In this document: piece by piece, positions 15,894-44,221 of the stretch
Layout of the letters: every line of letters begins with the position of its first letter
Numbering within the stretch: the stretch's first letter is position 1
Virus record (IMG/VR): IMGVR_UViG_3300032286_000925
Location: 31,386 to 95,385 of that record
Source of the DNA: a virus
DNA: 64,000 nt
Reading direction: 5' to 3' (one strand)
Notes under the pieces: generated by a model
Databases searched by the model: none
Told to the model about the DNA's origin: nothing
The model's input: the letters and a program-made list of their open reading frames with translations, nothing else
Translations under genes and position numbers: made by a program

Positions 15894-16018
15894 GCGCACA
15901 CGCTTTCTGAGTGACTTCCACTCAAATCTTGATAAGTAACAACACCACACTTGTAGTGCTGAATTGCATACATTAATCCAATAAGACTAATGAATATTAC
16001 CATAGTAGTGATTACCAT
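15881..16018 (-). CDS. Very small membrane protein
   Basis: 45 residues from ATG 16018 (MVITTMVIFISLIGLMYAI), one membrane helix followed by a short tail with two Cys (CGVV, SVCAW). The frame extends further upstream without typical coding, so the internal ATG with GAGG upstream is preferred. Confidence 0.5.
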   Translation of the reverse strand: MVITTMVIFISLIGLMYAIQHYKCGVVTYQDLSGSHSESVCAWEK

Positions 16019-16028
16019 CTTAGCCTCA

Positions 16029-16238
16029 CTACTCACCTTCACCCACACCCTCACACATCTGAATAGCAGTCTCTTCCCCAGCGTCTTTATATTGTTCCCA
16101 ACAGGAGACAGGGGTAGGAGTAGGTGCCGGATTCTGCTTTCCCTTAAGCAAGAAGAATCCATAAGCTAAGCACCCAAGCATTGCAACAACAATTAGCGCA
16201 AATGCAGCAATCTCTTTTTTAGTTATCTCTTCATTCAT
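16029..16238 (-). CDS. Small single-pass membrane protein
   Basis: 69 residues from ATG 16238, which has a strong AAAGGAGAATCTA site. A charged N terminus (MNEEITKKE) precedes one membrane helix (AAFALIVVAMLGCLAYGFFL), a Pro/Thr linker (NPAPTPTPV) and a short domain with two Cys. Probably type I/II inner-membrane protein of unknown role. Confidence 0.6.
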   Translation of the reverse strand: MNEEITKKEIAAFALIVVAMLGCLAYGFFLLKGKQNPAPTPTPVSCWEQYKDAGEETAIQMCEGVGEGE

Positions 16239-16458
16239 TAGATTCTCCTTTAATAAGTTCAACAGCCTCGCAAAAACAATAGCCAAGTTGATTATGCCCA
16301 CCATCCAAAGTGCATTTGCTATTCTCTGCTAGCAGTTTGATGATGCGATTACGTTCTTCTGTTTTAATAAAGCTTTCATATGAAGCTTGCTGTTGACGAA
16401 CAATTCCTCGTCTAATATCAATAGCTTCTTGCTCCGGGTCATGCGGGTAGTCATTCAT
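16231..16458 (-). CDS. Small helical protein, ERxRI family
   Basis: 75 residues from ATG 16458 (AAAGGAGAGACGA upstream). Holds TEERNRIIKLLAENSKC and ends VELIKGESNE. Same plan as the next two genes and the one at 19286: a charged helix with ER-x-RII, then a closing LI helix. Two Cys and a His (C-x8-H, CFC) could bind zinc. Function unknown. Confidence 0.6.
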   Translation of the reverse strand: MNDYPHDPEQEAIDIRRGIVRQQQASYESFIKTEERNRIIKLLAENSKCTLDGGHNQLGYCFCEAVELIKGESNE

Positions 16459-16642
16459 TCGTCTCTCCTTTGATAAGGTCAATAGCAGTCTCAAGACCGT
16501 CTAGGTACTCACGGTCAACAAGCATTGGATTGCTTACTCTTTCAATCTCTGCCTTTAGCAGTTCAATAATGCGTTCACGCTCACGCTCAACAGCACGAGC
16601 TCTACCCTTTAGGGAATCCTCTACTGTAATCCATTTACTCAT
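16451..16642 (-). CDS. Small helical protein, ERxRI family
   Basis: 63 residues. VERERERIIELLKAEIERV is followed by YLDGLETAIDLIKGETNE, near-identical at its end to the neighbouring protein's LIKGESNE. Overlaps both neighbours. Clear paralogue; probable coiled-coil or adaptor. Confidence 0.6.
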   Translation of the reverse strand: MSKWITVEDSLKGRARAVERERERIIELLKAEIERVSNPMLVDREYLDGLETAIDLIKGETNE

Positions 16643-16839
16643 TACGTCATTCTTTCTATTAGTTCGATATGCTCACGAACAGCTCTACAACGAGCATGGG
16701 TCCGCATTATTTTTGCATTTCTGCAGTATTCATAGTCACACGCAAGGTTATTAAGTGCCTCAATGATTCGAGTACGTTCCTCACGTCGACCAACTTCTTC
16801 TCCAGCCATCCAGATGATTCTAGCCTCTTCATCATCCAT
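16642..16839 (-). CDS. Small helical protein, ERxRI family
   Basis: 65 residues. GRREERTRIIEALNNLA, then CDYEYC and HARCRAVREHIELIERM: same ER-x-RII start as the two following proteins with Cys/His added in the middle. Begins 2 bp after the C5 methyltransferase gene's end. Confidence 0.6.
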   Translation of the reverse strand: MDDEEARIIWMAGEEVGRREERTRIIEALNNLACDYEYCRNAKIMRTHARCRAVREHIELIERMT

Positions 16840-16840
16840 A

Positions 16841-17449
16841 CTACTCCGCTACCTCCAATGAGTCAATAGCATCTTGCAGAATAGCAAGACCAGTCTCTGG
16901 GTGTACGCAGTTACGCAAAATCTGTCTTTTGTTGGAGAGTTTGTACTTACTTAGGTCTATACCATGAAGTTTTTGTAGCCCTGGAATCTGTAAATCTCTC
17001 AGGTTCTCTACAACCTTAGGTAACTCATTAATAGTAAAACTTGCCCAGTAAAGGTGCCTGTTTATCTTCTGAGGGTCCATCATTGCAGGATAGTAAGGAA
17101 CAACATTCTCTACAACCCATAAAGCTTTTGAGTGATACTTCAAGAACACAATCTCTTCATAAAGAGTCATGTCTGGATACTTAGGCTCAGTGCCACGGAA
17201 TCTTACACCAATGTTGTATCTAAAAGACGAGTGGCTTTGACAGGGAGGAGAAGACCAAATAAAGTCAAACTCTTCATGGTGCTCCAATAAGAACTGATGC
17301 GCATCCCCCACAACTACGGTGTCATTTGGGTACAAGTCTGCATAGACAGCAGCTATATCGGGGTTGTACTCAACAGCAGTGACTTCATGCTCGTCACCCC
17401 AAAGTCTTCGGTTGCCACCAATACCAGCGTATAAGTTTAAAATCTTCAT
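16841..17449 (-). CDS. DNA (cytosine-5) methyltransferase
   Basis: 202 residues. Motif I LYAGIGGNRR (residues 6-15), motif IV PPCQ with catalytic C70, motif VI VVENV near residue 112, and a final motif NKRQILRNCVHPETGLAI. It transfers methyl from SAM to cytosine C5. It is short for the family (usually over 300 residues), with little room for a target-recognition domain, so site choice may need a partner or be loose. GGAA precedes the ATG. Confidence 0.8.
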   Translation of the reverse strand: MKILNLYAGIGGNRRLWGDEHEVTAVEYNPDIAAVYADLYPNDTVVVGDAHQFLLEHHEEFDFIWSSPPCQSHSSFRYNIGVRFRGTEPKYPDMTLYEEIVFLKYHSKALWVVENVVPYYPAMMDPQKINRHLYWASFTINELPKVVENLRDLQIPGLQKLHGIDLSKYKLSNKRQILRNCVHPETGLAILQDAIDSLEVAE

Positions 17450-17456
17450 AAGTTCC

Positions 17457-17660
17457 TTAATAAACTATGTTCGGTTCTTCGAGCACACCGTGACGTTTTC
17501 TAGCAGCCATACACCCAGCCTCCCAAAGATGTCTAGCGTATTGGCCGTTAACCCCACCACTCCAAAGCTCAATGTTTTTAGTTCCATCTGCATTTCTTGC
17601 AAGGTTTTTCTTAGGAACCTCAAGATTACAGTTTGCACAGATGTAGTTATCAGTAGACAA
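17457..17660 (-). CDS. Small zinc protein with C-terminal EEPNIVY tail
   Basis: 67 residues from a TTG start that overlaps the stop of the upstream gene. N-terminal CANCNLEVPKKNL looks like half a zinc site; a later Cys (EAGCMAARKRHG) may complete it. The last seven residues EEPNIVY match those of the next four genes upstream. Function unknown. Confidence 0.6.
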   Translation of the reverse strand: MSTDNYICANCNLEVPKKNLARNADGTKNIELWSGGVNGQYARHLWEAGCMAARKRHGVLEEPNIVY

Positions 17661-17937
17661 TGTCTGGCTCTTCTCTAGGTGCTAATCCAGATTCTTTAAT
17701 CCAACGCTCAGCAAGGTCTACCTGAACCCCTTGGGTCAAAGTCAGGAAGTCAGTACTACCATCAAGAACGTTGTTATTAAAAAGGTGAATAAGTATTCTA
17801 GCATTTGAATAAGGGTCTCCAGGACCATCCTTCTTACTCTCCCATAGGTTCCTGTCATAGCTAGGAATACTGTAGTAGTTAGTGAGTCTGTACTTAAAGA
17901 CTCCAGAATGCGAGACTTCTACTTCATTAATAGACAA
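17650..17937 (-). CDS. Hypothetical protein with C-terminal EEPDIVY tail
   Basis: 95 residues from TTG 17937. YRLTNYYSIPSYDRN is followed by a helical half (ARILIHLFNNNVLDGSTDFL, LAERWIKESGL). It resembles the protein at 17927-18184 in the order IL-hxHhF, LT, and W-x-KxS-L, so the two are probably paralogues. Ends EEPDIVY. Unknown function. Confidence 0.6.
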   Translation of the reverse strand: MSINEVEVSHSGVFKYRLTNYYSIPSYDRNLWESKKDGPGDPYSNARILIHLFNNNVLDGSTDFLTLTQGVQVDLAERWIKESGLAPREEPDIVY

Positions 17938-18184
17938 TGTTCCCCTCTTCCTTGTTCAACACTATCAGTTCCGATTGCTTATACCAAGCACTGGATAAAT
18001 ATAACTTTTCGGGCCCAGTAAGGGCATCAAATGCCATCTGATCCATACCAAACAAAGCAGACCTAAACATATGCACTAAGAGTATCTTTTTATCCTCTTC
18101 TAGAGCATTTTGATACCTATCTTGATTAGTAGTGCTAAGGCTAAAGAAGTTAGTGCAATCAAGAGTTTTACCTTTATACTTCAT
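17927..18184 (-). CDS. Hypothetical protein with C-terminal EEGNIVY tail
   Basis: 85 residues from ATG 18184 (GAGTGAGA upstream; the frame extends to 18220 without a good start). LDCTNFFSLSTTNQDRYQNA, then ILLVHMFRSALFGMD and LSSAWYKQSELI. Probable paralogue of the gene just downstream. Ends KEEGNIVY. Confidence 0.6.
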   Translation of the reverse strand: MKYKGKTLDCTNFFSLSTTNQDRYQNALEEDKKILLVHMFRSALFGMDQMAFDALTGPEKLYLSSAWYKQSELIVLNKEEGNIVY

Positions 18185-18191
18185 TCTCACT

Positions 18192-18374
18192 CTAGTAAAC
18201 AACATCTGGCTCCTCACCATCCCAAAGACTCGGTCTTATCCCAGCCTTCTTAACTTCATCCAAAAACGTATTCAAATGCTCTAAGCTACAAAAATCTCCC
18301 CAATGCGTAGTTGGGTACTTAGGCATATTACTGGCAATAGTTTCGCCACATTCGTTGCAAATAGGTTCTTTCAT
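18192..18374 (-). CDS. Zinc mini protein with C-terminal EEPDVVY tail
   Basis: 60 residues. ICNECGETIASN and FCSLEHLNTFL form a treble-clef-like C2-C/H zinc pattern. Ends GEEPDVVY. Transcribed from a leaderless promoter directly upstream, probably together with the following EE-IVY genes. Confidence 0.65.
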   Translation of the reverse strand: MKEPICNECGETIASNMPKYPTTHWGDFCSLEHLNTFLDEVKKAGIRPSLWDGEEPDVVY

Positions 18375-18409
18375 ACTCTAACCTTACCGACGTCGACGAC
18401 ATTTGTCAA
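18375..18409 (-). promoter_or_regulatory. Leaderless promoter with palindromic spacer
   Basis: Minus strand: TTGACA (18409-18404), 17-bp spacer, TAAGGT (18386-18381), 6 bp, ATG at 18374. The spacer contains TCGTCGACGTC, identical to the spacer core at 15230-15246. Confidence 0.75.
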
Positions 18410-18413
18410 CTTC

Positions 18414-18608
18414 TTAATAGACAATATCTTCTTCTTCTGCATTATCAAAAGCTAGCTCACACTGCCCGGAACAGACAGCCACAGTGTCCTCTGGAAAAGT
18501 GTCCCAATCGTACTCAGACAACCACCTAGCACAGAACCCACAGCGAATCCGCTTAATGTCCCAACTAAGGTCTTTGCTAACAAAACTCTTTCTAGTTCTA
18601 CGAAACAT
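18414..18608 (-). CDS. Zinc mini protein with C-terminal EEEDIVY tail
   Basis: 64 residues. CGFCARWLSEYDWDTFPED then VCSGQCELAFDNA give a C2-C2 zinc-ribbon. Ends AEEEDIVY. It is followed by a promoter, not by an overlapping gene, so its tail is not explained by overlap with another start codon. Confidence 0.6.
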   Translation of the reverse strand: MFRRTRKSFVSKDLSWDIKRIRCGFCARWLSEYDWDTFPEDTVAVCSGQCELAFDNAEEEDIVY

Positions 18609-18717
18609 TTTTAATCTTTCTTTGAGCTCTTTTAGCCTGTTCGTACAGACGCTTCTTTTGCATCTGGCGATTGAAGCGAATCTCTTTCATGAGTTTTTCA
18701 TATTCTTCATTTGTCAT
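18598..18717 (-). CDS. Very small basic helical protein
   Basis: 39 residues, MTNEEYEKLMKEIRFNRQMQ continuing to KKRLYEQAKRAQRKIKNVS. Start ATG 18717 follows AAAGAATGACAA, and it overlaps the next gene by 11 bp. All-helix, basic; lies between the tRNA and the EE-IVY genes. Unknown function. Confidence 0.5.
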   Translation of the reverse strand: MTNEEYEKLMKEIRFNRQMQKKRLYEQAKRAQRKIKNVS

Positions 18718-18740
18718 TTGTCATTCTTTCTTTATGGACG

Positions 18741-18814
18741 TCGAGGATGTCGGACTTGAACCGACGACCGAACGATTATGAGTCGTTTGCTCTAACCTGC
18801 TGAGCTAATCCTCG
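18741..18814 (-). tRNA. tRNA with CAU anticodon (Met, or Ile2)
   Basis: Full cloverleaf: acceptor CGAGGAT/ATCCTCG (7 of 7), D stem GCTC/GAGC, anticodon stem AACGA/TCGTT with loop CTCATAA, T arm GTCGG-TTCAAGT-CCGAC, A73. No CCA is encoded. C1:G72 and the sequence suit an elongator tRNA; a CAU anticodon could also be read by TilS as isoleucine. Its 5' end overlaps the stop of the metalloprotease-like gene by 10 bp. Confidence 0.9.
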
Positions 18815-19152
18815 CTTATAAGCCACTCTATCAGTTCTGGATTATCTCGCATAACCATAATCAACGAGTTCTCCCATACACCAATAAAATAATGCTCCCA
18901 AGCTTCAAAATCATCCGATTTCTTTGGCTTGACAGAGTTATCAAAAATCATCCTAGCTGCGTGGAGGACTTCGTGCATAACAGTCACTTTCTTCTTGCTT
19001 ACATGCATCTGAGAGTCTATCACGATGATATTCTGTGTGTCAATAGTATAACCATAACTACCGTCATTTAACATACCATCTTGCTTTTGGGTACGCTCGA
19101 TGATCTCGAAGACTTGCACTCCGATTTTAACGCTTTTAGGGAACTCAGCCAT
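18805..19152 (-). CDS. ImmA/IrrE- or SprT-like metalloprotease domain protein
   Basis: 115 residues with HEVLH at 60-64 (HExxH zinc site) and a preceding beta hairpin (YGYTIDTQNIIVIDSQ). Such proteins cleave repressors or other partners in phages; the target is unknown. GGAGGAG precedes the ATG. Transcribed from the promoter at 19203-19232; its last codons lie inside the tRNA. Confidence 0.7.
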   Translation of the reverse strand: MAEFPKSVKIGVQVFEIIERTQKQDGMLNDGSYGYTIDTQNIIVIDSQMHVSKKKVTVMHEVLHAARMIFDNSVKPKKSDDFEAWEHYFIGVWENSLIMVMRDNPELIEWLISED

Positions 19153-19202
19153 TTCTCCTCCACCTACATTTTACTACAGGTAAACACAGGGCACAATGAA
19201 GG

Positions 19203-19232
19203 AGTTATATAATAATGTATCACTTTTGTACA
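19203..19232 (-). promoter_or_regulatory. Repeated 30-bp promoter (copy 1)
   Basis: Minus strand: TGTACA, 17-bp spacer, TATAAC. 29 of 30 bases equal the plus-strand copy at 34250-34279. It lies 51 bp upstream of the metalloprotease-like gene start. Confidence 0.7.
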
Positions 19233-19285
19233 CACATATTTTAGAGGGGGCGTATAACTTTAAAACTAAGTTTATACAAGATTTT

Positions 19286-19534
19286 TTAGAAAACCTGGTC
19301 TTTATCCAGTAGATTGATTAAATCAGTTGCTGTAAGAAAAACTTCATCAAATACTAGATTTCCCTCAGAATCTAAGTGCTGGAGACTATTCTCCAAGATT
19401 AGTTGCTTAATCCTGTCTCTCTCAAACCTGATGCCTATTTCAGCTCCAGCCATCATTCCATTATCAAAAGCTTCTTCAGTCGACCACCAAAAAAGCCAAC
19501 CTATAAACTTTTTAACTAAATAATTAGACTTCAT
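19286..19534 (-). CDS. Small helical protein, ERxRI family
   Basis: 82 residues if started at ATG 19534 (GGGGA just upstream; ATG 19543 or GTG 19555 are alternatives, so the start is unsure). Contains GIRFERDRIKQLILENSLQH and a closing FLTATDLINLLDK, the same plan as the three proteins at 16231-16839. Starts inside the end of the N6 methyltransferase gene. Confidence 0.55.
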   Translation of the reverse strand: MKSNYLVKKFIGWLFWWSTEEAFDNGMMAGAEIGIRFERDRIKQLILENSLQHLDSEGNLVFDEVFLTATDLINLLDKDQVF

Positions 19535-20078
19535 TTCCCCAAACATCCCAGCCACTCATCGGCCTACGAGCAAACATTTCAAGTTTTGATTGGTCTGGGT
19601 ACAGACGCTCAATCCTTCGGTGGATTTCGTCTGGCTTCCTCGAGTGCTCCATCTTTGCAGCAAGAACCACATGGGGAACACCCTCGTCCGCAAGGGGTAG
19701 GGGTCGGCCCTTGGTAACGTTTGAAGCAACAATAACAAACTCCGTTGTCGGTTTTACGATGCTCGGGCGGACGCCTTGCGCGCCGATTGGAGTTAGGCCG
19801 TCCTTGCGAGTCTTCACCCATGTAAATGCAACTCCTCTATATGTAAGTCCCCATGCTCGGAGAAGATCGATGGCAAAGTCCAGACGAGGTGAAGTTACCC
19901 ACATGAATACAACGCCCGGCTTGTTTAAGACACTTTGTATATCCATCGCTATCAAATCTTCATCTGACATGGTTGGGTAGAACTTTGCAGCGGCACCCAT
20001 TTTGTCCTGAGCACCATAGTAAGACCATGGCGGATCCATCAGGATAACGTCATACTTCTTATCTGGAAGTGATGTCAT
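19524..20078 (-). CDS. MT-A70-type adenine-N6 methyltransferase
   Basis: 184 residues. Catalytic DPPW at 15-18 (ILMDPPWSYYG), then FMWVTSPRLD and FTWVKTRKDG, and a late EMFARRPMSGWDVWGNE, all standard for the MT-A70 family. It methylates adenine in DNA with SAM, most likely to protect phage DNA from restriction. Its neighbour group includes a C5 methyltransferase 2.5 kb away. Confidence 0.85.
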   Translation of the reverse strand: MTSLPDKKYDVILMDPPWSYYGAQDKMGAAAKFYPTMSDEDLIAMDIQSVLNKPGVVFMWVTSPRLDFAIDLLRAWGLTYRGVAFTWVKTRKDGLTPIGAQGVRPSIVKPTTEFVIVASNVTKGRPLPLADEGVPHVVLAAKMEHSRKPDEIHRRIERLYPDQSKLEMFARRPMSGWDVWGNEV

Positions 20079-20282
20079 GTTGTATTTTTTGTCTCCGTAA
20101 TAAGGGGGATTATAGAGACAGTCTACACCACATATTGATAATTAATTTGGAAGACCTAGTACTGACTTTCCCCAAGTTTGGACCTTGGTTCCAGAGGTTC
20201 CCACTTACATTTCTGTAAGTCGTCTCAAGCATTTCTGCTCTGCTGGTTGGTCTTGTGGACTCAGCAGTAAAGAGCCTATAGA
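20079..20282. other. Noncoding region with hairpins
   Basis: No gene seen. Contains a perfect hairpin ACTTACA-TTTC-TGTAAGT (about 20205-20222) and CCAAG-TTTGGAC-CTTGG (about 20174-20190), a 5-bp stem with a 7-base loop like an anticodon arm. No complete cloverleaf found. Confidence 0.4.
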
Positions 20283-20356
20283 GTGACCCTGTAGGAGTCG
20301 AACCTACGACCTGTGCGATCTAATTGCACCGCTCTTGCCAACTGAGCTAAGGGGCC
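20283..20356 (-). tRNA. tRNA with UAG anticodon (identity unclear)
   Basis: D arm GCTC-AGTTGGCAA-GAGC, anticodon stem GTGCA/CGCAC with loop ATTAGAT, and a perfect T arm GTAGG-TTCGACT-CCTAC. The anticodon reads UAG, for codon CUA (Leu), but the variable loop is only 5 bases whereas Leu tRNAs have a long one. The acceptor GGCCCCT/AGGGTCA has two mismatches (1:72, 3:70), and 31:39 is A-C. Could be a decayed or reassigned tRNA. Confidence 0.6.
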
Positions 20357-20762
20357 AACCAGATGCGCTCTGGCGGGCGGTCTACATTTTCTTGCGACGG
20401 CGAAACACACCAGTGGACTGTGTAGATTTGCACTACCGACTACTACTTCCGCGTCGACTCGTAGCACCTTGGCTACGCCAGTCCTTAGAGATTCCGTTGC
20501 CTAGGACGGGTAGACCGCTTTACGCTCTTTTGTCTACAAGCGTGGACTGCGAGGAATCGCACCTCGGAAACTCCTTACGAAGCACCTCTAGCTAATTTAT
20601 CCATGGTAGTCAATTAGCACAGCCCTAATCAGTAAGTCCCGTAGGAAGGCTACTTCGCCCAGTAATCTGGGTATTCCCGGGTGCGGTTTACTGAGTTGCA
20701 ACTACTCCCAAAGACGAAACAGTGGGCGGAGTTATCTACGCCTAGTTGCCATAACGTAGCAG
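20357..20762. ncRNA. Structured RNA block, possibly degenerate tRNAs
   Basis: Open reading frames here are not convincing. Two T-arm-like hairpins on the minus strand: CGAGG-TGCGATT-CCTCG (20548-20564) and GTAG-TGCAAAT-CTAC (about 20417-20431), each next to a CAGTCCA 3' end; the latter can pair with GGACTG about 65 bases upstream. At 20629-20694, TCAGTAA and TTACTGA (7 bp) enclose two hairpins, GTAG-GAAGG-CTAC and CCCAG-TAAT-CTGGG. These are tRNA-like but non-canonical (T-loop TGC instead of TTC). Confidence 0.35.
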
Positions 20763-21105
20763 TGGAGATGCGGGGAATCGAACCCCGGTCCAGTTAAGGA
20801 TCTATTGTTCTTCTACAAGCTTAGGTAGTTTATGTTACGGCTTAGATGTGTGACCTACCAGACCATCTAGTCGTTACCACTCTTTAAAGTCTTGTGGGAG
20901 AGACTTTTGTTTTGTCCTACTTATTTAAAACCTGACTGCCCACCTAGAACTAGTGCTTTGTCAGGGGCCTAAGCGTTGCGATTAAATCACGCGGCTAGAG
21001 CGTATGCAGATGTATTAGCATTTATTGTTTTGACAGATTCAAGAGATACTGTCATCTCTGCTTGCTTCACCAATTTCAGAATAACTGTCGAAACCAGTCA
21101 TCCCC
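20763..21105 (-). ncRNA. ssrA: tmRNA (ssrA)
   Basis: 343 nt. The 5' end GGGGATGACTGGTTTCGACA is the standard tmRNA start. The 3' end has the T arm CGGGG-TTCGATT-CCCCG and CATCTCC, which pairs with GGGGATG (7 bp, one G-U). The tag reading frame (20987-21019, minus) is GCT AAT ACA TCT GCA TAC GCT CTA GCC GCG then TGA, giving ANTSAYALAA. It rescues stalled ribosomes and marks the product for proteolysis. CCA is not encoded. Confidence 0.9.
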
Positions 21106-21135
21106 TCAATATTTAGTTATAAGTAAATTATAAGG

Positions 21136-21270
21136 CTAATCTACCTTGTTTACAAGCTTACGCTTGATTTTATCAAAAATCTTAGGACGTTTTTTAGACG
21201 CCTTACCATTCTGTCTTCCAGAACTTTTTACTTCCGAGACTGGCTTTCCGCCAGGCTTACCTTTTGCCAT
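21136..21270 (-). CDS. Small Lys/Gly-rich basic protein
   Basis: 44 residues: MAKGKPGGKPVSEVKSSGRQ, then NGKASKKRPKIFDKIKRKLV and NKVD. An excellent AAAGGAGATTAA site precedes ATG 21270. A disordered basic N terminus and a short amphipathic helix suggest nucleic-acid or membrane binding. Transcription may run on into the tmRNA 30 bp downstream. Confidence 0.65.
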   Translation of the reverse strand: MAKGKPGGKPVSEVKSSGRQNGKASKKRPKIFDKIKRKLVNKVD

Positions 21271-21315
21271 TTAATCTCCTTTGTTGAATATAAATATATT
21301 AGCAGATAATTTTGT

Positions 21316-21345
21316 GTTGCGCAACTCAATATAATTCATTATAAT
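21316..21345 (+). promoter_or_regulatory. Promoter with palindrome over -35
   Basis: TTGCGC (21317-21322), 17-bp spacer, TATAAT (21340-21345), leading to the gene at 21375. The -35 lies in the perfect palindrome GTTGCGCAAC (21316-21325), a plausible repressor site, perhaps for the gene's own product. Confidence 0.6.
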
Positions 21346-21374
21346 GGAACTACGTCTAAACATAAGGAGACAAA

Positions 21375-21848
21375 ATGACAACTAATCTGGTAGAAGAATA
21401 CTCAGAAAAAATAGAGCCACTATTAGAGCTGGCAAAGAAAGCCTACGGCTCTAGAAGCACTGCATCCCCACAACATGACGCATCTAGAAAGTACACCGAT
21501 TTGCTGGTCGAGTATTATGGCAAAGGCGGAAGCTTGTTAGATTTAGCTAGCAAACTAAAAGTAACTTATGCAGGCATGCGTAGAAGAATTATTACCTCTG
21601 AACTTCCATCTACAAAAAAGAGAACTAGAAGTAAAGCTACCGTAGTAGATGTTTCTACCGCTGCCGAGATGTTAAAAACACTCCAACAAACAGGACATAC
21701 AGAAGAATATCACAACGCTGTTTATAGAGTGTATGAAGAGCAAGGTATATCCTTAGGTAAGTTAGCAAAAGCAATGGGACTAAGTTCATCAAACCCTCTC
21801 TACTATGCAGTAGCTAAAGCTAGAATAGCAAAATCTGAACTAGTTTAA
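21375..21848 (+). CDS. Putative DNA-binding protein with two helix-turn-helix segments
   Basis: 157 residues with AAGGAGACAAA upstream. Residues about 53-75 (GSLLDLASKLKVTYAGMRRR) and about 125-150 (GISLGKLAKAMGLSSSNPLY) have helix-turn-helix spacing; the linker is basic (TKKRTRSKA). Probably a regulator. It is monocistronic: own promoter with palindrome and a strong terminator right after. Confidence 0.6.
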   Translation: MTTNLVEEYSEKIEPLLELAKKAYGSRSTASPQHDASRKYTDLLVEYYGKGGSLLDLASKLKVTYAGMRRRIITSELPSTKKRTRSKATVVDVSTAAEMLKTLQQTGHTEEYHNAVYRVYEEQGISLGKLAKAMGLSSSNPLYYAVAKARIAKSELV

Positions 21849-21857
21849 GGTTAATAA

Positions 21858-21888
21858 AAAAGCCCCTGATTTCTCAGGGGCCTTTTTA
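21858..21888. terminator. Bidirectional terminator
   Basis: GCCCCTGA-TTTC-TCAGGGGC (21862-21881) followed by a T-run, with an A-run on the other side. It serves the plus-strand DNA-binding gene and the minus-strand holin-like gene. Confidence 0.9.
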
Positions 21889-21897
21889 TTTATTCAG

Positions 21898-22167
21898 TTA
21901 TTCGCCTTTAGATGTTTTTTTGGTTTCAGCCAAAGCTGCCTCAGCTGAACTAGCAAACGCAATGTTAATTTCATCAGAGTCTAGTTTGCCATCTACAACA
22001 TAAGCACGAGCCAAAGACTCCGCAACTTCCATGATTCCAACAAAAGCAGCAATCAAAGCGGACTTCCATAGCTCGACGCCACCAATAGAACCAGCCGCTA
22101 AAACGGCACTGACTTTTAGAATTACAAGAGCAATTGTTCTTTTAAAGATTGTTAATACGAGTTTCAT
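21898..22167 (-). CDS. Holin-like small membrane protein (copy 2)
   Basis: 89 residues, two hydrophobic segments (about 10-28 and 33-55) then DGKLDSDEINIAF and a charged tail ending KKTSKGE. Paralogue of 11113-11409 but without a peptidase neighbour. It may be an antiholin or a separate membrane function. Confidence 0.55.
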   Translation of the reverse strand: MKLVLTIFKRTIALVILKVSAVLAAGSIGGVELWKSALIAAFVGIMEVAESLARAYVVDGKLDSDEINIAFASSAEAALAETKKTSKGE

Positions 22168-22224
22168 AATTTCTTCCAGGAGTAGGTAGGTTAATGCTTC
22201 TCTCTCCCAAGAACTACTTCAATT

Positions 22225-22551
22225 CTACCGCTTTATTCTAACTTCTATTTGACTAAGGGTAGTTCCCGATTTAATAGCTCTTCTAATGGATTTTCTCTCG
22301 GAGTCCGTGGTCCCACCCCAAATACCCATCTCATTGTTCTCAACAGCATAAACTAGACAGCGCATCATATAAGGACACTCTCTACATACAGCTTTTGCAC
22401 CGGCTTCATTATAATACTTGCTAGTCCCAGCTCCACCAGCAAAATCATTTAAATCCACTGGATAAAATGCATCAGGGTCAACTTCAGCGCAAGGCGCTAC
22501 ACCAAACTCACCAAAATCGGGGTAGTTCTCTATATTTAAATTAAAAATCAT
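22225..22551 (-). CDS. WhiB-family Fe-S regulator
   Basis: 108 residues. Four cluster ligands C21, C56, C59, C65 (CREC-x5-C) and the turn motif GIWGGTT, then a basic end (RRAIKSG, IEVRIKR). WhiB proteins bind the main sigma factor or DNA and occur only in actinobacteria and their phages. Likely redirects host transcription or blocks septation. Confidence 0.9.
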   Translation of the reverse strand: MIFNLNIENYPDFGEFGVAPCAEVDPDAFYPVDLNDFAGGAGTSKYYNEAGAKAVCRECPYMMRCLVYAVENNEMGIWGGTTDSERKSIRRAIKSGTTLSQIEVRIKR

Positions 22552-22573
22552 TTGTCATTCCGTATCTATTTAA

Positions 22574-22771
22574 TTATCCTCTTTTAGCACTAAAACCTAT
22601 ACCATTAAAAATAATAGGTGGAGCACCAAAGATCCTTAGTAGTTTACCACCACAGCCTTCAATTTTGCAAATTGGATCTTCCGGAGTGGGATCATTCATT
22701 AAACGAGTTTCCTCATATTCATGATTTTTATCTTCAGGGTGGTCAGAGCATTTGTATTGGTATGTAGGCAT
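22574..22771 (-). CDS. FmdB-like zinc-ribbon protein
   Basis: 65 residues: MPTYQYKCSDH, then CKIEGCGGKLLRIFGAPPII and FNGIGFSAKRG. This is the FmdB regulator fold (start MPTYxYxC, second C pair, GxGFxxxR), with an insert between the two halves. Putative regulator; ends just before the reductase gene's upstream side of the operon. Confidence 0.75.
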   Translation of the reverse strand: MPTYQYKCSDHPEDKNHEYEETRLMNDPTPEDPICKIEGCGGKLLRIFGAPPIIFNGIGFSAKRG

Positions 22772-22776
22772 TTAAA

Positions 22777-24816
22777 TTACTTATCTTTAAGATTTTCAGT
22801 AATTAGCTTAACCTCACAGGCATCCGTAGTGCAGTAAGCGTCACCAATAGCCTCTAGACCCATACCTTGGTAAATTCCATCAAGAGAGATAGGGAATAGC
22901 TTTTCAGTTGCAGCTAAATACTCTTCCTCAGTGATTTGTGTGTACGGCATCTGAGGATAAGTCATGTTGCCTGAAGGCAAGAATGACACAGTCTTCAGCT
23001 GACCGTCGTACATATGCAGAACTGACTCGATGTGCTTTGACTCAGTCTCAGGGTCAAACGAGATGGTTACAGATACAGAGTTATCTGACCAATAACGCTG
23101 GGCTGTCGCAGCAAGTGCCATCTTTTCAAAGATAGTTACGTCGCGTTCTGCACGTTCCGCAAGAGACTTGATTGGGAAGTAGACAACAGTCGTGTGATCC
23201 GGATTAGATACGTCCGGCTCAACTGTGTAGTTAGCCATCTTGAATAACGCTAACATAGGGTCATCATTTCCAAAACGAATTGCACGGTTGAAGAACTTAC
23301 CTCCTGGGGTCCAGTGAACACCCGGGCTCTCACCGGCCAAGATAGATACAGTTCCTGATGGCTTTACAGTCGTGGTCTTGATTGACTCACGGATACCCAG
23401 CCACTCAGAATAAGTAACGTCATACTTCTTTACTACTGCGTATCCCTCGTCCATCCAAGTACGTAGCTCTGGTAGACCCTTACGGTCAGCAAAGTTAGCA
23501 ATACCAGACATGGAGGTTCCGATACGACGGTTTCTCTGCATGATTGCGTTGGTCTCTTCCCAGTGTGTAGGAAGAAGAGTTACGGTCTTAGCATAAAGGT
23601 AGGCAAACTTTAAAGTACGAAGATAGTCTTCCTTGCTTTCGTGGCGGTTCAGGTAAGTCTCAACAAGAGTACACATTTCGTAGCTCTCCAAAGACTGCTC
23701 TGCACAAGGGTTGTAGCCCATGATTCGGTGGTCCTTGTTGTTGATTGGGTCACCTAGACGACCATATGCCTTCGAGACGTCTTCCCAGATAACGCCAGGT
23801 TCACCGTTAAGAATGATTCCATCCACAATTTTTGAGAAATCAGTTCCAACGTTTACCATGACGGAGTTGTTTGACATCCAACCCCAACCAGGGTTCTCGG
23901 AGTCATAAGAGTTACGCTCAGGGAACTTTTCAGCGTTCTTTAGGTTTAGGAAGTTGTCATCATCAATGCGACCAATCAACAACTCAGCAGAACGACGAAC
24001 GTTACCAGATACAACACAACGGCCAATTAGGTTACCAATGTCAGCAATATCAATAGTAGTTAAAAGCTCACCAGCACGACCATTAAAAATATCACGAATT
24101 TTGTCGTGTAGTGCAATCAATGGGTCTGGACCAGATGCAGTACCACCAAAGGTAGCAATAGGAGTGCCATAAGGACGAATTTCGCTGTAGTCAAACTCTA
24201 GGCTTGCTTGCTCTGGCTTCAGGTATGAGTTGATTAGAGCAACAGTGCTCTCCTGCCAACCTTCACGAGTATCTGGAATAGCGTAGGTCTGAGTAGCACC
24301 CGGAGCATAAATCTCAAAGCTCTTGTCTGCACCCTTGTCGTCAAACCCAACGCCCACACCGAGCATCGATGCTTCCATAAGGAATGCGAATGGCTTACCT
24401 GGGTTCTGCTTGGTCATTTCCAAAGTAGATACAAAAGCACAGTTCTGTAAAGCAGCTGAGTTTTTCTGGACGTTTACGATGTTGGTTCCCATAACCCAAA
24501 GTCCACGCCCTGGAGGAGACCACTTTAGATTAAATAGAGAGTCAAAAAACTCTTTAGCCGAGGCGGCAGCCTTAGCGTCTGACCATGGCAAACGGTTCTG
24601 CTTAGCGTGGTCTTTTTGGATTGAGTATGTACCATTGGTAACACGCTCACAAACTTCAGCCCAAGTTTCCTTGGTGCCATCTTCTTTTTTGCGTGAGTAC
24701 GTGCGCAAGAATGTAATCTCGCCTACAGAGTTGCCAGCGGCATCTTTGTAACCAAAAGGGGATTCTTTTTGCTTGTACTCCGCTACGAACTCTTCATTTA
24801 GCTTAAATGAGAACAT
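22777..24816 (-). CDS. Class II ribonucleotide reductase (B12-dependent)
   Basis: 679 residues, monomeric RTPR-like. N-terminal SPPGRGLWVMGT and QNCAFVST, active site NPCAEQSLESYEMCTLVETY, KPSGTVSILAGESPG in the middle, and the C-terminal redox pair CTTDAC. It reduces ribonucleotides with adenosylcobalamin, oxygen-independent, and uses thioredoxin (encoded at 15.4 kb). AGAAGG lies upstream of the ATG. It probably depends on host or environmental cobalamin. Confidence 0.9.
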   Translation of the reverse strand: MFSFKLNEEFVAEYKQKESPFGYKDAAGNSVGEITFLRTYSRKKEDGTKETWAEVCERVTNGTYSIQKDHAKQNRLPWSDAKAAASAKEFFDSLFNLKWSPPGRGLWVMGTNIVNVQKNSAALQNCAFVSTLEMTKQNPGKPFAFLMEASMLGVGVGFDDKGADKSFEIYAPGATQTYAIPDTREGWQESTVALINSYLKPEQASLEFDYSEIRPYGTPIATFGGTASGPDPLIALHDKIRDIFNGRAGELLTTIDIADIGNLIGRCVVSGNVRRSAELLIGRIDDDNFLNLKNAEKFPERNSYDSENPGWGWMSNNSVMVNVGTDFSKIVDGIILNGEPGVIWEDVSKAYGRLGDPINNKDHRIMGYNPCAEQSLESYEMCTLVETYLNRHESKEDYLRTLKFAYLYAKTVTLLPTHWEETNAIMQRNRRIGTSMSGIANFADRKGLPELRTWMDEGYAVVKKYDVTYSEWLGIRESIKTTTVKPSGTVSILAGESPGVHWTPGGKFFNRAIRFGNDDPMLALFKMANYTVEPDVSNPDHTTVVYFPIKSLAERAERDVTIFEKMALAATAQRYWSDNSVSVTISFDPETESKHIESVLHMYDGQLKTVSFLPSGNMTYPQMPYTQITEEEYLAATEKLFPISLDGIYQGMGLEAIGDAYCTTDACEVKLITENLKDK

Positions 24817-24890
24817 ATTTAGTTATACCTTCTTCTTTGGGGGAGTATTTAATGTTTTACTAGTATACCCCATATAAAGAATTGGGAGTA

Positions 24891-25118
24891 TTAGTCGTGA
24901 TTTAAATATAGTGCATCAACAATAGATTTGCAAATTGGACAGATCCTTAGTTTTAAAGGGTCTCTATAAGGCACAAACTCTATCCCGCATAAGGCTATTA
25001 CTGGAGTTCCCATAACATATCCCTCAGTAACCTTCGCAGCTTCTGCGTAATGTGCAAAATCCTTTGAATCATCGGTATCAGAAGTTATTGGCAAATCTAG
25101 AACATTAACGTTGTTCAT
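24891..25118 (-). CDS. DUF3039-like protein
   Basis: 75 residues. GTPVIALCGIEFVPYRDPLK then RICPICKSIVDALY match the actinobacterial DUF3039 pattern (CGxxxVPxRDPxxFxxCPxCK). Three Cys would bind zinc. Function unknown; supports an actinobacterial host. Confidence 0.75.
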   Translation of the reverse strand: MNNVNVLDLPITSDTDDSKDFAHYAEAAKVTEGYVMGTPVIALCGIEFVPYRDPLKLRICPICKSIVDALYLNHD

Positions 25119-26073
25119 TAGGCATATCCTTTAGTATAGACAGAACTTTTTCTTTTGAAATTTTTGCAATATGCGACGAGGCATCTTGCTTTCCAAAACT
25201 TATTATTAACTGACCCCCATGTTCAACCATTCCGGCAGCAAACTCTACTCCCGGAGAAATAAATTGAAAAGGCTCCGTGTATTGAATAATTTCACCATAC
25301 CAGTTATACCTGACAAAACAATGAGAGTAGTTTCTAATAACTCCTTGAAGCACCCCAAAAGACTCCGGTTGATACCAGCTATACGGAGCCATGTAGTTTC
25401 TGTGAACTACAGCCAAGTATGTACTATCTCCCAAATCAAGTAGGCAAGAACCGCCTCTAAACTTGTACTCAGGAGTTTTCTGGTCTACAACAATGATGTC
25501 ATCCTTAGTTGCGACCCCACACTCATATATAAAATCAAAGTTTGGGTTTTCTTTATAAGGTAGCATCCAATTTTTTTCAACAGCTTTTTCACCTTTAGGA
25601 GATCTATATATATGGATAAATTTAGCTTCTTTTTTATCTTTATTATATTTAAACAGCCCTACTCTTGGATAACTCATGTAGCCAACCTCATAGACTACAC
25701 CTAGCATCCACCAAGAGTTATCCCGCCAAAACAATCTAAAGTCTTCTATCCCTCTTTTTATTGGAAAAGGACAATTCACTATAGATATTTCTGAAAAATT
25801 TTTAAACGTTCTTAAATCAGCATCTAATTCTGCAAAATAAACCCTATTTTTAACAAGATTGCCAGTAGTAATTTTTAGATGGTATTGAGGAAAATCTAAA
25901 ATTAAGTTGCTAGATCTAAAAACAACAGCGTACAATCCACTATCATCAACCCCAATAGATGGATTACATAGGGACCAAAGGGGGTCTTTTAGTTGATTTT
26001 TATCAGCTAAAAGGTAAGTTTCTCCCCCTAAATCTTTAAATAAAGGGTGCGGAGGGAAGGTGACATCAGACAT
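25105..26073 (-). CDS. GH130-like five-bladed propeller protein
   Basis: 322 residues. NPSIGVDDSGLYAVVFRSSN (first blade), KRGIEDFRLFW, VEKNWMLPY, FRGGSCLL and SPGVEFAAGM-x-HGG-x-LIISFGKQD match the order of mannoside phosphorylases/hydrolases of family GH130. It may cut or bind mannose-type host glycans, or modify the phage's own. Starts on a leaderless -10 layout and lies beside the tail fibre operon. Confidence 0.65.
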   Translation of the reverse strand: MSDVTFPPHPLFKDLGGETYLLADKNQLKDPLWSLCNPSIGVDDSGLYAVVFRSSNLILDFPQYHLKITTGNLVKNRVYFAELDADLRTFKNFSEISIVNCPFPIKRGIEDFRLFWRDNSWWMLGVVYEVGYMSYPRVGLFKYNKDKKEAKFIHIYRSPKGEKAVEKNWMLPYKENPNFDFIYECGVATKDDIIVVDQKTPEYKFRGGSCLLDLGDSTYLAVVHRNYMAPYSWYQPESFGVLQGVIRNYSHCFVRYNWYGEIIQYTEPFQFISPGVEFAAGMVEHGGQLIISFGKQDASSHIAKISKEKVLSILKDMPNEQR

Positions 26074-26114
26074 ATATCTTATTCTATCTCAACTTTTAAT
26101 AAATGCTGTAAAAT
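26074..26114. promoter_or_regulatory. Divergent promoter pair
   Basis: Minus: TAGAAT (26086-26081), 7 bp, ATG at 26073 (leaderless). Plus: CTGTAAAAT (26106-26114) before the fibre operon. Same elements as at 8099-8144, with 25 rather than 30 bp between the two core motifs. Confidence 0.5.
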
Positions 26115-26148
26115 TAAGGATGACTACCCTTCCCGAAATTAGGCTCTT

Positions 26149-26508
26149 ATGAGTAATAGTATAGCTGGAACTTACAATATAACGTGCGATCAAGGCGCGA
26201 CATTTAAGCGTACCCTGACTTGGACCAATCAGGCTAGAGTTGCCTATAATCTCACCGGTTACACAGCTAGAATGCAGGTAAGAGAGACAGCAACAGCTAG
26301 TGGCATTATATTAGAACTAACTACTGCAAACAGCAGGATAACCCTTGGTGGCACGGCAGGCACGGTTAATTTACTAGTTGCAGCAAACGTAACTGCCGCC
26401 CTTACCCCCGGACTTTATGTATACGATTTAGAACTAGTTTCTGGCGGCGGTGAGGTGACTCGCCTTATTGAAGGCAACTTTAAAGTCAAAGCAGAGGTAA
26501 CTCGTTAA
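26149..26508 (+). CDS. Tail-fibre-associated beta-sandwich protein
   Basis: 119 residues. [33 protein letters not shown] and [20 protein letters not shown] are typical of BppU/baseplate upper-type N-terminal modules that connect fibres to the baseplate. First gene of the fibre operon; its stop overlaps the next start. Confidence 0.7.
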
Positions 26509-26948
26509 TGGCCTTAGAATTTGAAGATAAAGCGAATAAAGTTATTGTAAATCCACAAGACATAACCAAAGTTATAGTACAAGAAGAAGTAATCAAAGTT
26601 GACGTTAGTTTTGGTGGACCTCAAGGAATTCCAGGCCCAACAGGCCCAACCGGAGCAACCGGAAGCACAGGCCCAACCGGAGCAACCGGAAGCACAGGCC
26701 CAACCGGCCCAGCTGGACCAACTGGCCCCCAAGGTCCAGCAGGTGCAACCCAAGTAGTCGCTTATACCCATACCCAAAATGCGGTATCATTGAGTTGGGT
26801 AATTACGCATAATCTAGGCTTTTACCCAAACGTTGTAGTTACGGATTCAGCTGGAACTGTAGTCGAAGGAGACATCTCATTTCAGTCTGTTAATCAACTT
26901 ACTATAACACTAACACACGCTATAAGCGGATATGCTTATTTATCATAG
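26508..26948 (+). CDS. Collagen-like tail fibre protein
   Basis: 146 residues. Residues about 38-83 are 15 or more Gly-x-y triplets ([20 protein letters not shown]), forming a collagen-type trimer rod; the C-terminal part ([20 protein letters not shown], then [20 protein letters not shown]) is a beta tip also found in other tail proteins. Forms or extends the fibre. Confidence 0.8.
26643..26696 (+). repeat. Two exact 27-bp tandem repeats in the collagen gene
   Basis: 26643-26669 and 26670-26696 are identical (start GGCCCAACCGGAGCAACCGG), each encoding nine collagen residues. Copy number change would lengthen or shorten the rod in register. Confidence 0.85.
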
Positions 26949-26959
26949 GAAAGTAAACA

Positions 26960-29482
26960 ATGGCACGTAAATTCTTAACACCAATCGACCTCAATAAAAA
27001 TGAGTTGCAAAACGTTGCTATTCAAAACCTAGCAAGCGACCCAGCAAGCCCAGCCACAGGTCAAATATACTACAACACTGGTGGAAGTCTAAAATACTAC
27101 AATGGTTCTGCCTGGAAGATAGTTACCACAGGAGTAATTACTGCACTTACCTTTAAGAATGACGGTACCGGAGCAGCAGCAAATTCAACCTTTGATGGAT
27201 CAACTGCTGTATCTATATCATATAACTCAATCGGCGCAGCCCCTACAGTTAACGCAACTTTCACCGGAACACTAACTACACCTCTAAATACAGCTGGACT
27301 AGTTGTAACAAATGCTACCGGCGTGCTCTCTAGCACAGCAACAATCGCTGACTCGTACCTAGCAAATATCACTACAGTGGGTAAGGTTCAAAACTCTGCA
27401 ACTACCGCATCCTCCGCAAATGGTGCATCAACAATTGTTTCTCGCGATGGAAATGGTAACTTTGCTGCTAACACAATTACTGCTACTCTTTCAGGAAATA
27501 TCAGCGGGTCTGCTGCATCTCTATCTGCTGCATCTGCACTACCTGATGGAACAACTGCAACTACCCAAGCGGCAGCAAACAACTCAACAAGAGTTGCAAC
27601 TACCGCTTATGTAGACACAGCTGTATTCAACGGTCAAGCTGGATTCAACGTACACGCTGCTGTTGCAGCAGCATCTACTACAAACATCTCTGGCACATAC
27701 ACTGCTGGTTCTGCCGACAACTCACAGGGTACGGGTGTCGGTGCGACATTCGTATTCACTACAGCCACTGTAGATGGTGTAACTCTATCTGCAGGCATGC
27801 GTGTTCTTCTAAAGAACCAGACTACTGCAACTCAAAATGGTGTCTATACAGTAACTGGAACCCCTGGAGCAAACGTTACACTTACTCGTGCAACTGACTT
27901 TGATAACAGCGTTGCTGGTGAAGTCTTTAACGGTGACTTGATTTACATTGGTGGTACAGGCGGGCAAGCTGGAACCACATGGGTGATGAACTCTCCAGGA
28001 ACTGCCACAACTCCATCTGGTGCAGTTAGAATCGGCACTGACAACATCAACTGGGTACAGTTTGCTGGTGCTGGGACCTACACAGGCTCAAACGGTGTAA
28101 GCGTAACAGGAACCGCCATTGCTGGTGTAGACGCAACCACAGGAGCTAAGGGTGTTGCTTCATTCCCATCAGCTCAGTTTACAGTTGCTTCAGGTGCAGT
28201 AACCGTTGCAAACCTATCTGCTGCAGTTATTTTAAGCGGTACATTATCTGCTGCTCGTGGTGGTACAGGTGTAGACAACGGTTCAAACACTCTAACACTT
28301 GCTGGAAACGTAAGTCACGCAGGTTCATTTACCCAGACATTTACAGCAACTGCCAATACTTCCCTTACTTTACCTACTACAGGTACGCTTGCTACTCTTG
28401 CTGGTTCAGAAGCACTAACTAACAAAACCTACAATGCTCTGACTCTAACTGCAGCTTCTACAGGTTTTACAATTGCTGGTGGAACAACTAGCAAGACTCT
28501 TACTGTAAGCAACACCATAGCTCTTGCGGGTACCGACTCAACAACGATGACGTTCCCAAGCACAAGCAGCACAGTTATGACCCTGGCTCAACCAGGAACG
28601 CTGACTGGAACTCTCACACTTCGTGCAGGTACTGCAACTGCCGGAACTGCCCCTCTATATCTAACTTCTGGTACTAACCTAACTGCAGCCGCAGCTGGAG
28701 CAGTGGAGTTCGATGGTACTAACCTATTCTTCACTCCAAGCAGCACACGCAAGACTATCGCGTTTACTGACTCAGCAATGTCTGGAAACACAACCGGTTC
28801 TGCCGCAACTCTAACCAATACTCGCTCACTTTGGGGCCAGAGCTTCAACGGTTCTGCCCTTGTCACTGGGATTATTAGTGGTGCAACTCAAGTTATTGGT
28901 ACTGCTGGCACAAACTTTGTCTTAAAAGGCAGTGATTTTAATGCGACCACTGGTACCGCACCCGGCACTTACATATATGGTAGCGAGGCCACAGCCGCTA
29001 CTGGAAACGCTCAGGCTGGTAGCGTCTACATCTACTCTGGTGCAAGTGGAAGCGGTAGCGGTACAGCAGGTAGCATCAACATTGGTTCTGGTGAGGTTAT
29101 AAACCTGGGTGGCGGCACTACAAACATTGCAGGAACCGTAAAACTTACCTCACTTGGTAATTCTGGTTTTGTAAAACTAAGCACTGGCGGAGCCTTAATT
29201 CAAGACACCAATACCTACCTCACTTCTACATCCGCTACATCCGCAGGATTTGCAAAGAAGTACGCAGAAAACAATGGAGCTCTTACTGCAACCTCAGGTG
29301 CAGTTACTTGGACAGTCACTCACAACTTGAATACCTCAAACGTTACAGTTCAGACATATCAAAACTCAACCAACGCTTCAGTTGAAGTTGATGTTGTAAC
29401 CACAAACGCCAACGTCGTGACTCTTACTTTTAACTCAGCAACACTGACAGGTAGCGAATATCGCGTAGTTGTTATTGGTTAA
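26960..29482 (+). CDS. Large tail fibre protein
   Basis: 840 residues, Thr/Ala/Gly-rich. The start ([20 protein letters not shown], then [20 protein letters not shown]) is the fibre N terminus common in phages, followed by a long beta-rich shaft with repeats of the type [18 protein letters not shown], and a C-terminal domain ([20 protein letters not shown]) like the collagen-like protein's tip. Likely host receptor binding. Confidence 0.8.
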
Positions 29483-29489
29483 TAAGTGG

Positions 29490-29501
29490 TAGTATAAGCT
29501 T
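29490..29501 (+). promoter_or_regulatory. Leaderless -10 element
   Basis: TAGTAT (29490-29495) ends 6 bp before the ATG at 29502, with no ribosome-binding site. It would allow the second fibre gene to be made independently. Confidence 0.4.
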
Positions 29502-43644: not shown

Positions 43645-44181
43645 CTAGAACGGTGCGTCTGCAGGGGCAGACAGTGGCACTCCAGGGCCGCTAGGGGCCG
43701 GAGGAGGAGGTGGCACAGCAGCACCCGCAGTTGTAGCCTGAGGGGCTACAGCAGGCGCTGAAGGGCTTACAGACCCAACGTAGTAACGGCCAATCTTGTT
43801 CTTTTTAGCACCCTGATACACTTCTGAAGAGATCTGAGCGCGGAAAGATTTACCAGCCAAAGCTGCTTCAATCTGGGCGTTTGATGGGTTGTTATTCGTG
43901 AAGAACTCACGAGGGATACCTAGGGCAGCCATCTTAGAGAAAAAGATACCAAGGGCATTCTTGTTCTCAGGTGAGATGGTAATGTTGTCCCAGATAAAGC
44001 GATTAGCGTAAGGTCCAGTAACTACCTTTGCCTTTAGCTTGAACATGGTCTTACCAGTGCTGGTAGTACCTGCTGGAGCCTCTACCACCTGAAGATCGTA
44101 ATCTCCATCTGGTAGTGGCTCGTAGTTGCCGGTGGCCTCGCCGGCGTCTTTTACAAGATCGGCCCAATTCAGTGAACTCAC
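43645..44181 (-). CDS. ssDNA-binding/DUF669-like protein
   Basis: 178 residues. YEPLPDGDYDLQVVEAPAGT, FKLKAKVVTGPYANRFIWDN and FFSKMAALGIP fit the phage DUF669 ssDNA-binding protein. The tail is Pro/Ala-rich and ends SAPADAPF, like the protein-binding tip of SSB (usually DDDIPF). It lies next to the Sak4-like ATPase, as recombination pairs do. Confidence 0.7.
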   Translation of the reverse strand: MSSLNWADLVKDAGEATGNYEPLPDGDYDLQVVEAPAGTTSTGKTMFKLKAKVVTGPYANRFIWDNITISPENKNALGIFFSKMAALGIPREFFTNNNPSNAQIEAALAGKSFRAQISSEVYQGAKKNKIGRYYVGSVSPSAPAVAPQATTAGAAVPPPPPAPSGPGVPLSAPADAPF

Positions 44182-44221
44182 TGTATTATTTCCTTAACTG
44201 TTAGGGGTGGGTTGAGAAGTC

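Follow-up and report, generated by a model that had tools for sequence, protein, structure and literature searches.

A C-terminal peptide on unrelated small phage proteins resembles the tip of the phage SSB

Five consecutive minus-strand genes in the open reading frame list of the window (the whole stretch of 64,000 nucleotides analysed here, which corresponds to 31386-95385 in G000, a virus record of 95,385 bp) end in a common tail, EE-x-(D/N)-(I/V)-V-Y. Since these five tails, together with those of unrelated proteins in related phages, resemble the end of the phage SSB, the phage seems to direct numerous small proteins to a single partner, and we give about even odds (a probability of roughly 0.5) to the reading that the tail serves for docking, as a C-terminal peptide bringing small phage proteins to a receptor that reads the SSB tip. 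A docking-type role had been among the suggestions of a preliminary description of this DNA, and the co-occurrence of the tail with the SSB tip and the variety of its carriers argue for it. Phage genomes consist in large part of genes for small proteins that have no known function and seldom come with a functional clue, so that a shared peptide offers a direct handle on them; where it is common to a dozen or more unrelated proteins and tied to an SSB tip, identifying its partner could identify that of every carrier.

The tailed genes and their relatives

Read from 18608 down to 17457, the genes end EEEDIVY, EEPDVVY, EEGNIVY, EEPDIVY and EEPNIVY, and the reading frame ends thus bear out the five neighbouring small proteins with a common C-terminal tail of the preliminary description, although the positions that it took for gene starts (17457, 17650, 17927, 18192 and 18414) are really the stop ends of minus-strand reading frames. 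In the order of these stop positions, the last eight residues are LEEPNIVY, REEPDIVY, KEEGNIVY, GEEPDVVY and AEEEDIVY and the stop codons TAA, TGA, TAA, TAG and TAA, so that all three stop codons are present, as described. Among all reading frames longer than 25 aa in the 64 kb, no others end in [ILVMF][ILVT]Y. The genes and their tails are as follows.

18414-18608, minus strand: 64-aa protein with one CxxC, ending EEEDIVY; first gene of the array
18417-18437, minus strand: tail codons EEEDIVY; a TTG inside opens 17 codons only, and the next gene begins 42 nt past the start of the stop codon
18192-18374, minus strand: 60-aa protein with one CxxC, ending EEPDVVY; the orthologue in the near relative G001 is 92% identical and ends EEPDIVY
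18195-18215, minus strand: tail codons EEPDVVY; the TTG at 18202-18200 inside opens the next reading frame
17927-18202, minus strand: 91-aa protein from TTG 18202, ending EEGNIVY (G001 orthologue, EEDNIVY); alternative starts at ATG 18205 or 18220 would give 92 or 97 aa
17930-17950, minus strand: tail codons EEGNIVY, with the TTG start of the next gene inside at 17937-17935
17650-17937, minus strand: 95-aa protein ending EEPDIVY; the G001 orthologue is 81% identical and ends EEPDVVY
17653-17673, minus strand: tail codons EEPDIVY, with the TTG start of the next gene inside at 17660-17658
17457-17660, minus strand: 67-aa protein with one CxxC, ending EEPNIVY; last gene of the array, followed by a DNA methyltransferase-like reading frame
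17460-17480, minus strand: tail codons EEPNIVY (GAA GAA CCG AAC ATA GTT TAT), without an overlapping start codon

Two further statements about the bodies of these proteins stood in part. The three called zinc-type each carry one CxxC (CANC, CNEC and CGFC), and no Pfam family passes its cut-off for them. The probable paralogy of the 95-aa and ~92-aa proteins rests on a similarity that is present but weak, 27% over 86 aa with an E-value of 3e-5 for the single pair, the tail being counted in. The methyltransferase-like gene right after the array (16841-17449, minus strand) is 46-54% identical to genes of Vibrio, Flavobacterium and Gordonia phages; a glycosyltransferase-like gene takes its place in G001.

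Protein searches and degenerate DNA patterns served to find relatives in IMG/VR. All five tails are kept in G001, which has one extra array gene ending ERVIVY. G002 and its near copies carry a longer array, mostly unrelated to the array genes of the window, with seven tailed genes and one ending EEPEIV, and tails do co-occur in the small-gene arrays of related phages, as the preliminary description had proposed to check. A second tail region lies far from the array in G002 and G004, where other proteins end EEPDVVY, EEKEIVY, EEEDEVY and EEPNLIY. The second region of G000 (15900-31500, L023) lies outside the window and encodes p215 (DUF1281_C, Api92-like), which ends PEPDVVY, as well as p141 and p90. 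The motif stands at the very C-terminus of most carriers and is followed by one to four extra residues in p141 and p90 of G000 and in three proteins of G015, carriers of this kind ending EQDVVYGGEA, EPDLLYGNEA (both G000), EDIIYS or EEAQIIYQ. By sequence comparison, the tail is shown to be borne, in two genome regions, by a dozen or more families among which no similarity is detectable. The tails of a Zn-ribbon family weigh less as evidence, because their EE comes after a common CxxCGEE end. In the AlphaFold2 model of p215 (pLDDT 87) the tail, residues 204-210, falls below 50 and is shown as a disordered extension; the last block of the predicted structure of a Zn-ribbon carrier has a pLDDT of 52.

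The frequency of the tail was assessed by counting the pattern GARGARNNNRANNTNRTNTAYTRR in phage records and host-family genomes, with the reversed pattern as control. It occurs five times in the G000 genome (reversed control, 0) and in 2-11 copies in each of seven records of this phage group, the reversed pattern being absent from all of them; on these counts the abundance of the tail in the group is beyond chance. Across 250 Microbacteriaceae genomes there were two matches altogether, which shows the tail to be phage-specific and the host family to be without it. A DNA similarity search of 50,697 cultured phages with the region returned essentially tRNA matches alone, and p215, the Zn-ribbon family and p153, a family discussed below, had no match among cultured phages. 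The literature searched contained no phage system in which unrelated small proteins have a tail in common, in agreement with the preliminary description, which knew of no such module. The motif class, that of an SSB-tip-like docking peptide, is already known; its use as a common tag appears new as far as this can be tested.

The tip of the phage SSB

The SSB of G000 adjoins the second tail region.

G000 22345-22764, outside the window: SSB, PF00436 (57.5 bits against a cut-off of 26)

It ends EEPTIV, and the SSBs of other tail-bearing phages end EEPAIV (G001, G013, G014), EPEPEIV (G002, G006), PEPEMV (G015, G016) or EEPEVV (G292), a tail-like tip being present in every tail-bearing phage. Unlike the tails, these tips have no Tyr at the end, their last residue being Val, and acidic EE or EPE is found in nearly all tails and tips. 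Judged on these sequences, the tip, E-(E/P)-P-x-(I/V)-V, and the tail, E-(E/P)-x-(D/N/E)-hydrophobic-(V/I)-Tyr, appear to be of the same motif class. When a profile built solely from the tails of the small-gene arrays was scored on all C-termini of each genome, the SSB came first among the proteins without Tyr in G000, G001, G002, G006, G013 and G014 and was among the top few in G015. It ranked 5th of 155 in G000, where the null probability of a score of at least 10 is 1.9e-4. After the SSB came p144, a protein not assigned to any known family (..KEPAIV), in G000 and G013, and no C-terminus scored above 4 in the tail-less G021, G022 and G017. In five genomes p144 ends EPAIV, EPAVV or EPALV after a diverged preceding stretch; in G002 and G006 its ends, EPVAV and EAEAV, match the tip weakly.

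The association was also seen in a blind search in which viral contigs were queried by the SSB alignment alone. Among the 67 distinct SSBs obtained, tails (tailed reading frames within 10 kb of the SSB or, for the phage of the window, anywhere in its genome) accompanied 8 of the 9 tip-positive SSBs and none of the 58 others, one spurious VFELPELVF aside (Fisher P 1.4e-9, a value without correction for relatedness). As the definition of the tip, EPx(I/V/M)V, had been refined after earlier examples were seen, the fair out-of-sample case is G292 (L294), a phage new from this search, whose SSB ends EEPEVV and whose tails are carried by p215 (QEPDLVY), a p141 homologue (EPDVVY) and two new small proteins (EEPDLVY and QEPDLIY) without relatives among the other phages. 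The exception is G293 (L259), with an EPEPEMV tip and no tails; SSB tips ending ELV (L309, L257 and others) also go without tails. The SSB tree is poorly resolved and places the tip-and-tail phages in separate positions, and supported sisters of L294 (L315) and of L267/L270 (L290) have neither tip nor tails. We conclude that the tail co-occurs with the SSB tip. Many related phage SSBs end instead in HxC(N/S/T/D)CxxC, likely a metal-binding sequence (L252, L253, L255, L260, L265, L272 and some 20 further loci), an end that essentially no protein besides the SSB has in those loci.

Loss of tails from retained genes had been named beforehand as evidence against a function of the peptide. No such loss is found among the five genes in the near relative; distant phages do keep p215 without a tail, yet these phages have no such SSB or an SSB with a different end, and this joint absence points to a shared partner. 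A different C-terminus that is common in tail-less p215 proteins, GKRIYPTL, was not found on other proteins of those phages.

Classical SSB tips of the DDDIPF type dock on partners through acidic residues, a hydrophobic end and a free carboxylate, and deletion of the terminal Phe abolishes binding (PMC10164576). In the classical motif this Phe is buried in a hydrophobic pocket of the SSB-interacting protein. The tip of the E. coli SSB (-DFDDDIPF) and the phage tail are both short C-terminal peptides, acidic and then hydrophobic, on a disordered extension, the acidic residues lying shortly before the C-terminus in each, and the variant form described here sits literally on a PF00436 SSB. In contrast to the classical tip, the phage peptide is E-rich, ends in IV or IVY rather than IPF, occurs on numerous small proteins unrelated to one another and is followed in some carriers by a few further residues; a C-terminal Phe is found on neither the tails, which end in Tyr, nor the phage SSB tips, which end in Val. 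The missing Tyr on the SSB and the residues past the motif in some carriers, whose Tyr therefore does not offer the free carboxylate of classical binding, imply a binding rule that differs in part from the classical one. Because EEPDIVY matches the classical order of features, with other residues, and the phage SSB end is closely similar, one receptor for tail and tip is the simplest reading. The tail would then act as a docking peptide on many unrelated small phage proteins, which most likely bind the same receptor as the SSB tip and, once docked, might join the phage ssDNA complex or else compete with and displace the SSB. At 43645-44980 of the window (minus strand) G000 also encodes a second SSB-like protein (DUF669), which adjoins a Sak4-like AAA_24 ATPase and ends ADAPF, so that the phage has two SSB-type proteins with different C-terminal tips.

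Candidate partners and other roles of the tail

We extend the docking reading tentatively, as less likely than not, to a phage-wide address tag: one receptor, of phage or host, would read the peptide both on the SSB and on a varying complement of small accessory proteins, and seven codons would suffice to plug a new gene into the DNA-processing complex, in arrays also giving the next start. If this is true, phages recruit new proteins to one complex via a short C-terminal tag, and SSB tips are replaceable along with a whole client set.

Families that go with the tails were sought by comparing gene contents, where some tail-less records are fragments and single absences are no proof. Of the genomes checked, p153 (~150 aa, no Pfam family) was present in each of the nine with tails and absent from all 27 without; the Zn-ribbon family was present in every tail-bearing genome examined and in one of the 27. 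p153 has no tail of its own, gave no convincing match to PDB or PHROG, and has a pI of ~4, ill suited to binding an acidic peptide in a pocket; we take it for a candidate member of the module, not an identified receptor. The Zn-ribbon proteins are more likely clients, as they bear the tail themselves. The p144 family, found by HMM in seven tail-bearing genomes, was rejected as a universal partner: it was not found in G292, by a search without its own positive control, and it bears a tip itself. The replication module of G000 (36-50 kb of the window) is mostly not common to G002 or G015, so that none of the phage replication proteins stands out as a shared receptor.

A host protein is a less likely target. 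A Rhodoluna-like freshwater actinobacterium is the probable host, since second SSB proteins in such genomes share 60-71% identity with the phage SSB; other relatives of the phage SSB belong to Arthrobacter, Mycobacterium, Streptomyces and similar phages. In freshwater Microbacteriaceae (L215-L224, L125-L166) this second SSB has no PF tip and often ends EPELVGAKKK or ELVAAK, and the main SSB ends GDDTPF. The tail might bind, for instance, a host SSB-binding protein, which the phage proteins would block or recruit, and both the alignment of EEPDIVY with the acidic residues, Ile and aromatic end of classical tips and the kinship of the phage SSB with cellular second SSBs, some ending EPELVGAKKK, are consistent with this. 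The tails do not copy the GDDTPF of the putative host's main SSB, however, which rules out the host's canonical tip as their model, and many phages of the same SSB family, probably with similar hosts, lack tip and tails together, so that a phage-encoded receptor fits better. We regard a host target as unlikely.

Equally improbable to our minds is a degron or protease tag through which a host or phage protease would control the lifetime of small early proteins and of the SSB. The tail is exposed at the C-terminus, has a hydrophobic end, recurs on numerous small proteins of unrelated kinds and is disordered in the AlphaFold2 model, all of which would suit such a tag, and a MoxR-like AAA_5 ATPase and a VWA (CoxE-like) protein are encoded directly upstream of p215, beside the second tail region (L023 9495-12440, G000, outside the window). 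This pair is conserved in all related phages, tailed or tail-less, and was rejected as the reader of the tail. A degron would moreover be odd on the SSB, which is abundant and required throughout replication, and the acidic, Pro-containing stretch is unlike typical ClpX-type ends. The HbYX motif of proteasome activators is a C-terminal hydrophobic-Tyr-X, and some G015 tails do end IIYS, IIYQ or IIYA, whereas most tails end in Tyr itself and the SSB tips are without Tyr; no 20S proteasome (PF00227) was detected in any of ten Rhodoluna-like genomes by a search that was positive in ten known genomes used as control, which rules out this motif and also speaks against a degron.

Peptide and start codon in the tail DNA

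The tail might also be the by-product of an element at the DNA or RNA level, namely a region for starting translation (GAGGAG, a 7-nt spacer, TTG) laid over the end of the upstream gene. The start-associated sequences (SAS, GGGATAGGAGCCC) of Cluster K mycobacteriophages are a DNA element upstream of starts (PMC3203893) and resemble the tails in being short repeated sequences, with a GGAGCC core, immediately upstream of starts at many gene junctions of an actinobacterial phage. To this extent the tabulation of 30 tails agrees: 13, all in arrays, have a TTG exactly 8 nt before the stop which opens a downstream reading frame of 48-112 codons, most of them with a GAG-GAG-like sequence, resembling a Shine-Dalgarno site, ~7 nt ahead of the TTG, and one L005 gene whose Tyr codon has turned into a stop (GAGGAGCCAGAGATTGTCTAG, ending EEPEIV) retains the TTG. 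Within the window the overlap occurs at three of the five tails (17650, 17927 and 18192), not at two junctions only as first described; of the remaining two, said to be free of it, the tail at 17457 has no TTG and that at 18414 contains one opening 17 codons only.

In 15 of the 30 tails, by contrast, there is no TTG and the next gene begins past the stop, and in two more the TTG opens just 12-17 codons. The tail is therefore not confined to places where a downstream start overlaps, a pattern that the preliminary description had set against a peptide function. Tails without an overlapping start include those of the array's last gene, p215, the Zn-ribbon genes and the 140-aa genes, and have ATA, CTA, GTG, ATC, CTT or CTG where overlapping tails need ATT/GTT-G; in the 13 overlapping tails all degenerate codons still vary. 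Whereas an SAS is conserved DNA ahead of starts, independent of frame, the peptide is kept in other codons and differing DNA. Orthologous tails behave likewise. Between the 64-aa protein and its G001 orthologue the bodies are 46% identical and the tails identical at 7/7 residues, with one synonymous change; for the 67-aa protein (EEPNLVY in G001) four of the seven tail codons have changed synonymously and one conservatively. When six comparisons between orthologues with non-overlapping tails were pooled, 32 of the 35 tail residues agreed, where body identity would predict 22.5 (P ~1.4e-4); as the bodies that set this expectation are not neutral, the figure is a comparison rather than a dN/dS test. 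Wherever orthologues could be compared, the tail is better conserved than the body.

As tails exceed bodies in conservation and codons vary freely in overlapping and non-overlapping tails, the conserved unit, on this sequence evidence, is the peptide, and the start-codon overlap in arrays is a second use of the tail DNA, an economical packing rather than the cause of the peptide. Selection on the peptide, and the synonymous variation adduced for it, had both been claimed from the five genes; both hold up with unrelated families in two genome regions, many codon spellings, and half of the tails free of an overlapping start. A start-site cassette as sole cause is largely refuted by the non-overlapping tails and leaves the SSB link unexplained, and we consider the element reading very unlikely. 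That the tails are functionless leftovers of shared ancestry or of recombination among gene ends is scarcely credible: neighbouring array genes do share junction DNA, an aid to gene shuffling, but the tails are conserved better than the bodies, occur on new families in the separate lineage G292 and are gained or lost together with the SSB tip.

Two further features of these genomes were noted. In G001 and G014 (L028, L120/L121) an intergenic repeat, AATTAATAAAAACAAAATAAAACAA..AGATTACC, occurs 16-17 times ahead of a TTGAC-like promoter sequence; the repeat was not found in the other tail-bearing phages. The window itself encodes a tmRNA (20762-21105, minus strand; tag ANTSAYALAA), with a tRNA-Met (18740-18814) and a tRNA-Leu (20283-20357) nearby.
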